Shown here: in pieces, positions 16,259 to 17,467 of the stretch
Layout: each line of letters begins with the position of its first letter
How positions within the stretch are numbered: position 1 is the stretch's first letter
The notes under the pieces: generated by a model
Databases searched by the model: none
The model's input: only the letters and a program-made list of their open reading frames with translations
What the model was told of the DNA's origin: nothing
Position numbers and translations under genes: made by a program
From: Hyphomicrobium sp. CS1BSMeth3
GTDB lineage: Bacteria; Pseudomonadota; Alphaproteobacteria; Rhizobiales; Hyphomicrobiaceae
Direction: 5' to 3'
Length of the DNA stretch: 64,000 bases
Assembly: GCF_900117415.1 (NCBI RefSeq)
Contig: NZ_FPEI01000006.1
Location: forward strand, 2,585,001-2,649,000

Positions 16259-17467
16259 TTACTCGATAATCTTCGTGACCACGCCGGCGCCGACCGTGCG
16301 GCCGCCCTCGCGGATGGCGAAGCGCACGCGCTCCTCCATGGCGATCGGCGAAATCAGGTCGACGAGGAACTCGGCATTGTCGCCGGGCATGACCATCTCC
16401 GTCCCTTCCTTCAGCGTCACGATGCCGGTCACGTCGGTCGTGCGGAAGTAGAACTGCGGACGGTAGTTGTTGAAGAACGGCGTGTGGCGGCCACCCTCTT
16501 CCTTCGTGAGGATGTAGGCCTCGGCCATGAACTTCTTGTGCGGCTTCACGGAGCCCGGCTTCGCGAGGACCTGGCCACGCTCGACGGCTTCCTTGTCGAT
16601 GCCGCGCAGGAGGCAGCCGACGTTGTCGCCAGCCTCGCCCGAGTCGAGCAGCTTGCGGAACATCTCGACGCCCGTGACGGTCGTCTTCTGCGTGTCGCGA
16701 AGACCGACGATCTCGGCTTCCTCACCGACCTTGATGGTGCCGCGCTCGATGCGGCCCGTGACGACCGTGCCGCGGCCCGAGATCGAGAACACGTCTTCGA
16801 TCGGCAGCAGGAACGGCTTGTCCTTCGGACGCTCGGGGAGCGGGATGTAGGTGTCCAGCGCCTCGTAGAGCTTGAGGATCGCCTCGTCGGCGAGCGGGCC
16901 CTTCTCACCGTTGAGCGCCTTGATCGCGGCGCCGCGGATGACCGGCACGTCGTCGCCCGGGAACTGGTACTGCTTCAGCAGCTCGCGGACCTCGAGCTCG
17001 ACGAGGTCGAGGAGCTCTTCGTCATCGACGATGTCGCACTTATTGAGGAACACGACGATGTACGGCACGCCGACCTGGCGAGCGAGCAGGATGTGCTCGC
17101 GCGTCTGCGGCATCGGGCCGTCGACCGCGGACACGACCAGGATCGCGCCGTCCATCTGGGCGGCACCCGTGATCATGTTCTTCACGTAGTCGGCGTGGCC
17201 CGGGCAGTCGACGTGGGCGTAGTGGCGGTTCTCGGTCGCGTACTCGACGTGGCTCGTCGCGATCGTGAGGATCTTCGTCGGGTCGCGGCGGCCCTGGCTC
17301 TCGGAGGCCTTGGCAACCTCGTCATAGGCGATGGCCGTCTTCGTCCAACCCTTGTCGGCCGAGACCTTCGTCAATGCAGCCGTGAGCGTCGTCTTGCCGT
17401 GGTCGACGTGACCAATCGTGCCGACGTTGCAATGCGGCTTATTGCGATCGAATTTCTCCTTGCCCAT
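16259..17467 (-). CDS. tuf: elongation factor Tu with an atypical switch I
   Basis: A 402-residue GTPase that carries aminoacyl-tRNA to the ribosome. G1 (GHVDHGKT, 20-27), DCPGH (87-91), the NKCD motif and the C-terminal barrels are normal, including GGRHTPFF and [12 protein letters not shown]. Switch I is not: between AYDE and HVEY there are five extra residues, and the near-universal RGITI is replaced by KILTI (65-69), preceded by GRRDPT. The magnesium-binding threonine is kept (Thr68). As I recall, planctomycete EF-Tu has a similar RDxTKxxTI switch. Codon use matches the neighbours. It is the only tuf in the window. Confidence 0.96.

Follow-up and report, generated by a model that had tools for sequence, protein, structure and literature searches.

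An alternative switch I loop in the sole EF-Tu detected in Hyphomicrobium sp. CS1BSMeth3, probably a foreign segment in a native alphaproteobacterial gene

The window, the 64,000-nucleotide stretch of Hyphomicrobium sp. CS1BSMeth3 DNA analysed here, carries on its minus strand a str/S10 neighbourhood of rpsL, rpsG, fusA, tuf, rpsJ, rplC, rplD, rplW and rplB (Table 1), gene names that were assigned by likeness. The tuf product, EF-Tu, is encoded by a single open reading frame with a 30-residue switch I stretch of its own form and is a TIGR00485 equivalog, scoring about 703 bits (703.8) against a cut-off of 522.4. The 6.02-Mb genome contains nine TIGR00485 matches, with the window tuf alone over the cut-off and eight below it; no second, canonical tuf, for which the first-pass annotation had proposed a search, exceeds that cut-off.

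Table 1. Features of the tuf locus, in window coordinates.
Feature	Position	Strand	Basis or remark
tuf (EF-Tu), 402 aa plus stop	16259..17467	-	sole tuf over the family cut-off in the genome
tuf residues 15-76, probable recombined cassette	17240..17425	-	approximate borders; groups with variant EF-Tus of other phyla
tuf residues 46-76, switch I region (31 residues)	17240..17332	-	reading and alignment
tuf residues 62-66, DPTKI, without E. coli counterpart	17270..17284	-	alignment
tuf Thr68, counterpart of E. coli Thr61	17264..17266	-	alignment
tuf residues 212-402, domains 2 and 3, alphaproteobacterial	16262..16834	-	phylogeny
fusA (EF-G), neighbour in comparison tree	17546..19618	-	
rpsG, neighbour in comparison tree	19643..20113	-	
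rpsL, neighbour in comparison tree	20217..20588	-	
rpsJ, neighbour in comparison tree	15878..16186	-	
rplC, rplD, rplW, rplB, neighbours in comparison tree	13327..15794	-	

Alignment with E. coli EF-Tu (record L290) sets 26 window residues of switch I against 21, a net gain of five, with KILTI in place of RGITI. E. coli R58-G59-I60-T61-I62 aligns with window R60-R61-(D62 P63 T64 K65 I66)-L67-T68-I69. The hydrophobic gate is preserved (L67 for Ile60) and is preceded by Ile in the window protein and by Gly in E. coli, and a basic residue is kept as K65, three residues before T68, in the position of E. coli Arg58. T68 stands for the Mg-binding Thr61 of E. coli; the counterparts of the P-loop Asp and of the catalytic His84 are present, as are domains 2 and 3, and the protein is full length. 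The loop is therefore not a canonical RGITI switch I, and the first-pass annotation read it correctly: one frame without a frameshift, canonical flanks, five added residues, KILTI for RGITI and the Mg-binding Thr retained.

A loop of the window type was also read in three genomes of the same genus (G001, G002, G004), and in a fourth (G003) the tuf gene ends at residue 60 with its contig. Counting the window's own protein, 30 distinct proteins share the 26-residue window motif without any difference; their holders comprise family members, an alphaproteobacterium of another family (G280) and three Acidobacteriota, two of them with nearly identical proteins. The occurrence of this loop in three same-genus genomes and of the motif in 30 distinct proteins rules out a sequencing error, and the genome's only detected EF-Tu has a real and conserved alternative switch I.

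A whole-protein search of 60 relatives gave 43 matches at a strict cut-off, and the full-length matches fall into two identity groups, 87-99% and 75-79%; in the loci read, the former has the variant loop and the latter RGITI. Of the 79 family genomes at least 90% complete that were searched with a fragment, 62 matched, and by score and identity 40 are variant (own genome included), 22 are canonical only and 17 have no match, with none of the 79 holding both loop types. Across the class, the variant was found in 3 of 387 evenly drawn genomes, own included (2 of 386 others; E up to 1e-22), and across the order in 20 of 397 (16 from the family itself, the other 4 from a single further family). 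Twenty of 195 Bradyrhizobium genomes match, and all six examined (G107, G108, G1020, G914, G850, G892) carry both tuf types together. Two Alphaproteobacteria of other families, G280 and G220, have a single tuf each.

A scan of titled records was read for the best 80 loci of at least 596 stretches. Among these, the variant loop is present in L038-L048 and L050-L052, and L049, ended by a contig edge, agrees in its readable part. Their titles name Pseudomonadota, Kiritimatiellota, Planctomycetota, Acidobacteriota, Gemmatimonadota, Nitrospirota and Candidatus Acetothermia (Bipolaricaulota), so that the variant recurs in records of six phyla besides Pseudomonadota, although single phylum assignments may be wrong because many of the records are metagenome bins. 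The loop of the Acetothermia record (L052) is more divergent. Twenty-four of 149 Acidobacteriota genomes (E up to 1e-20) and 19 of 195 Planctomycetota genomes match; of the 20 and 19 loci fetched, respectively, 19 and 19 yielded a readable protein with the loop (L180 stops at a contig end, and L199 has a divergent form). Five variant-bearing Acidobacteriota were examined: G534 and G506 contain complete genes of both types, G633 combines a canonical gene with a variant stretch that lies at a contig end, and only the variant tuf is present in G599 and G109.

Another non-RGITI switch I, reading IAKGGTVRDxTKTVTIAVAHVEY or nearly so, occurs in Planctomycetota, where four were read, and in one Myxococcaceae record (L283, L287, L288, L289, L057). 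It is a shorter type, related to but distinct from the window's. The statement in the first-pass annotation that planctomycete EF-Tu carries an RDxTKxxTI-type switch is borne out. The EF-Tu proteins extracted number 269, of which 202 are distinct: 94 with RGITI, 103 of the window type and 5 of the shorter type. Y48, R61, D62, K65, T68, H73 and E75 are invariant in the 108 distinct non-RGITI proteins of both loop types, which were fetched by likeness to the motif and include many close kin. A loop intermediate between the types was found in none of the 202 distinct EF-Tus, themselves sampled by likeness. Two Gemmatimonadaceae EF-Tus (L045 and L063) are sisters outside switch I, one with the variant loop and one with the canonical.

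The dN/dS of the window tuf is 0.05-0.23 among the 12 pairs listed. Such constraint, together with the lack of any other EF-Tu above the cut-off, suggests that the protein should carry out elongation. With K65, T68 and the hydrophobic gate kept, it would be expected to behave like any EF-Tu apart from its altered effector loop, and ordinary aminoacyl-tRNA delivery is its most likely function. The longer loop may differ in its ribosome and tRNA contacts and in its accessibility to attackers of switch I. An AlphaFold model has a pLDDT of 86 overall and of about 57 at residues 51-70, and for this reason no loop geometry is claimed. No PDB chain matches the 30-aa loop fragment at E up to 10, a weak search with so short a query; full-length PDB matches number 58, and the three read in alignment all have the canonical loop. 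The 16S rRNA, sought for co-variation with the loop, was recovered in 1 of 23 genomes only. Among plasmid records, considered as possible carriers, 84 match the whole EF-Tu, with 74.5% as the highest identity.

Elfamycin resistance was considered at positions 120, 124, 160, 226, 230, 257, 275, 298, 316, 329, 333, 334, 375 and 378. Among the 17 family variants compared, only position 298 departs from the E. coli residue, with Val in 14 of 17, as in many canonical rows. Assignment to the elfamycin-resistant EF-Tu class was rejected, these positions being wild type apart from 298, which is variable in canonical proteins too. The E. coli record used for alignment (L290, 4.8 Mb) is filed as a plasmid and is probably a chromosome; its tuf is predicted as 'elfamycin resistant EF-Tu' and has the usual residues at the resistance positions inspected.

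According to PMC3014915, the E. coli protease Lit cleaves EF-Tu between Gly59 and Ile60. This bond is absent from the KILTI loop, a difference of consequence only where these bacteria face attackers of that sort. Lit-like proteases (Pfam PF10463), considered as a selective agent, match 0 of 79 family genomes, an absence that carries no weight because 14 control genomes gave no match either.

The extra tuf genes of Bradyrhizobium and its kin (L140, L141, L219, L226, L228, L238, L254, L256) and the third tuf of G064 (L136/L142:9039-10232) have a changed aminoacyl pocket. In E. coli numbering, the eight Bradyrhizobium and kin rows have G (seven) or S (one) at D216, Q, H or R at F218, S or T at M260 and L at R230, and the G064 copy has G, H and A at D216, F218 and M260, respectively, with T228S and E259Q. 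D216 and F218 are invariant in the other EF-Tu groups compared. PMC6386890 lists D217G, F219Y and T229S (the same positions, Met counted) in engineered EF-Sep, and by this overlap the Bradyrhizobium, kin and G064 copies may be natural EF-Tus with an altered amino acid preference.

Outside its own genus, the window tuf is 87-93% identical to variant and 74-77% identical to canonical family members; the identities of the neighbouring genes are alike in variant and canonical genomes. The same-genus pair G006 (variant) and G029 (canonical) has eight neighbours that are 87-98% identical and a tuf that is 81% identical, and the tuf genes of G006 and G061, both variant, are 95% identical. A quick neighbour-gene tree of 31 rows needs 8 changes of loop type, of which starred branches force at least 6; 42 of 500 shuffles gave a count as low. 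A careful tree of 28 rows, from which two long rows (G012, G220) and one outgroup were removed, needs 6 (bootstrap 5-7, at least 4 forced), with 10 of 500 shuffles as low. By these counts, loop type is only partly clustered on the tree. In the 14 variant family members, the tuf tree has 3 of 11 splits in common with the neighbour-gene tree (random mean 0.2), and tuf marginally rejects the neighbour-gene topology (p-AU 0.041), which makes a degree of exchange among family members likely.

Family members with two tuf genes have one copy in the str operon and, in the cases checked, the other beside tRNA-Trp; the latter copy is variant in G026, G023, G006 and G027 and canonical in G029. Six of the 7 two-copy genomes compared have identical paired proteins, the outcome that gene conversion would give (PMC1780047). 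The variant pair of G027 (L165, L166) differs at 11 positions, unlike the six identical pairs. In G010, one contig of the pair L163/L164 links tRNA-Tyr and tRNA-Gly to tuf and rpsJ and the other links fusA to tuf, joins that probably reflect an assembly switch at identical tuf copies.

Trees of the whole protein and of its segments do not agree. A whole-protein tree of 55 rows places the family variants apart from Alphaproteobacteria, with other phyla, and one of 118 rows, with the switch I columns dropped, groups them with the Bradyrhizobium variants and five Acidobacteriota variants (support 95). Segment tests were run on 38 rows, 6 of them family variants, and their p-values are indicative because the segments were picked after a sliding-window look at the data. 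For residues 15-76, a single alphaproteobacterial clade is rejected (lnL 46.2 worse, p-AU 0.0019) and the best tree unites the variants with support 100. For residues 212-402, a single variant clade is rejected (lnL 66.9 worse, p-AU 1.1e-6); the best tree has Alphaproteobacteria, variants included, on one side (support 85, not starred), and the family variants adjoin family canonical EF-Tus and other Alphaproteobacteria. Residues 1-205 without 40-76 are non-discriminating (p-AU 0.29 and 0.26), which leaves the borders of the cassette vague, and residues 77-205 allow an alphaproteobacterial clade (p-AU 0.61) and lean against a variant clade (0.07).

Site-wise lnL in the family puts the variant signal chiefly in residues 15-76 (-49.5), with residues 15-45 also leaning variant (-9.8), and the counter-signal in residues 1-14 (+10.9), 176-211 (+20.7) and 311-402 (+39.4). 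Residues 212-310 lean to the variant grouping (-21.7), which speaks against a clean two-part mosaic, and the whole-protein total is undecided in the family (-2.9) and tends towards the variants in G280 alone (-15.0) and G220 alone (-27.8). The same segments oppose each other in G280 and G220 (p-AU 0.0024/0.02 and 0.0054/0.045, respectively), the alphaproteobacterial support for domains 2 and 3 being only 34 for the set with G280 and 90 for that with G220. The foreign-like stretch of G220 seems to extend as far as residue 211. Dropping the switch I columns still leaves a single clade of all variants rejected (p-AU 2.6e-5; 48 rows, 22 variants). Synonymous codon identity in residues 46-76 is not clearly above that elsewhere, giving no DNA-level trace of a recent cassette transfer and agreeing with the view in the first-pass annotation that any acquisition was old.

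Comparison with relatives suggests that the loop region was swapped into a native gene long ago, and we consider it probable that the window encodes a native alphaproteobacterial EF-Tu with a foreign switch I segment (about residues 15-76), formed before the family diversified and retaining an ordinary elongation function. Old homologous recombination or gene conversion would have replaced these residues with a donor segment of the alternative switch I type that is patchy across several phyla. The mosaic may have formed once, before family diversification, and then coexisted with a canonical tuf at two loci, as both types still do in Bradyrhizobium, until loss and gene conversion fixed one type per lineage. 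An ancestor with one gene per type, followed by conversion and loss, would produce the observed patchwork, and a single origin before diversification would entail the approximately six type changes on the neighbour-gene tree. The first-pass annotation had set transfer against an old lineage trait shared by close relatives whose EF-Tu branches within Alphaproteobacteria. Part of the latter description holds: the insert is common in the family, and domains 2 and 3 are alphaproteobacterial. The segment that carries the insert does not share this affinity.

Acquisition of a whole tuf gene from another phylum (e.g. Acidobacteriota) by horizontal transfer, with displacement of the native gene, was raised in the first-pass annotation and was at first favoured here from the whole-protein tree and the neighbour comparison, as both the 55-row and 118-row trees separate the family variants from Alphaproteobacteria. 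It was dropped because the segment trees conflict: domains 2 and 3 reject a variant clade and fall within Alphaproteobacteria in their best tree, beside the family's canonical EF-Tus, and only about residues 15-76 group with the variants of other phyla, so not all domains lie outside Alphaproteobacteria and transfer of the entire gene now appears unlikely. Repeated evolution of the loop by insertion into native EF-Tu genes under the same selection would fit the 14 changes of the non-RGITI label (both loop types) on the domain 2 and 3 tree of 118 rows. We nevertheless regard it as very unlikely, given a 26-residue motif shared without a single difference by family members, G280 and three Acidobacteriota, the variant leaning of residues 15-45, outside the insert, and the lack of intermediates among the 202 distinct proteins sampled by likeness.

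Two old EF-Tu paralogues from a very early duplication, sorted by loss and gene conversion with little transfer between phyla, would accommodate the coexistence of both types in Bradyrhizobium and some Acidobacteriota, the variant or canonical state of the tRNA-Trp-adjacent tuf and the identity of most tuf pairs. Lathe and Bork, as cited in PMC1780047, argue for two ancestral copies with differential loss in Proteobacteria. Such a history would demand very many losses to leave the variant in just 2 of 386 further genomes sampled from the class, and it seems quite unlikely. A broader idea, to which we give little weight, is that the bacterial EF-Tu effector loop comes in two or more interchangeable cassette types, repeatedly swapped between tuf genes across phyla and kept as a patchwork by selection, perhaps through attackers that recognise one type. 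If so, the attackers might be proteases such as Lit, toxins or antibiotics, and KILTI would be the form without the Gly-Ile bond.

RGITI is usually regarded as invariant in EF-Tu, a premise of mechanistic work on switch I. A different loop in a sole EF-Tu that is otherwise largely native, as reconstructed above, suggests that this segment is exchangeable in nature and makes the KILTI EF-Tu a natural experiment on what switch I does during translation on the ribosome. It is also a warning that phylogenies built on tuf may rest on mosaic genes. Distant whole tuf genes fail to support E. coli viability, with switch I and II residues among the possible reasons, according to PMC5574714. In the literature searched, which covers few subscription papers, no description of the KILTI loop type was found.

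The window protein shares with canonical EF-Tu (E. coli tufA/B; TIGR00485) full-length homology, the P-loop GHVDHGKT, switch II DCPGH, NKxD, the str-operon place, the gate and the Mg-binding Thr; the canonical switch I is five residues shorter, with RGITI rather than KILTI and Gly rather than Ile before the gate. With the planctomycete IAKGG type (L283, L287, L288, L289) it shares the RDx(T/S)KxxTI core, which its RDPTKILTI matches, but that type lacks KASESQGR and, in L057, the case aligned, is three residues shorter ahead of RD. The window protein has a 10-residue stretch where the planctomycete type has IAKGG and therefore does not belong to this shorter type, and the window loop type itself also occurs in other Planctomycetota. 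Eukaryotic EF1A and EFL are two forms of an essential elongation factor with a patchy, mostly exclusive distribution, and the present case resembles them in having two elongation-factor forms so distributed; EF1A and EFL are separate proteins, whereas the two EF-Tu types differ most in one segment. The tuf gene conversion and differential loss described by Lathe and Bork (2001, as cited in PMC1780047) share with the present case two tuf loci that are kept alike. Copies within one genome are nearly identical in the 191 genomes covered there, whereas Bradyrhizobium and some Acidobacteriota here keep two very different tuf genes.
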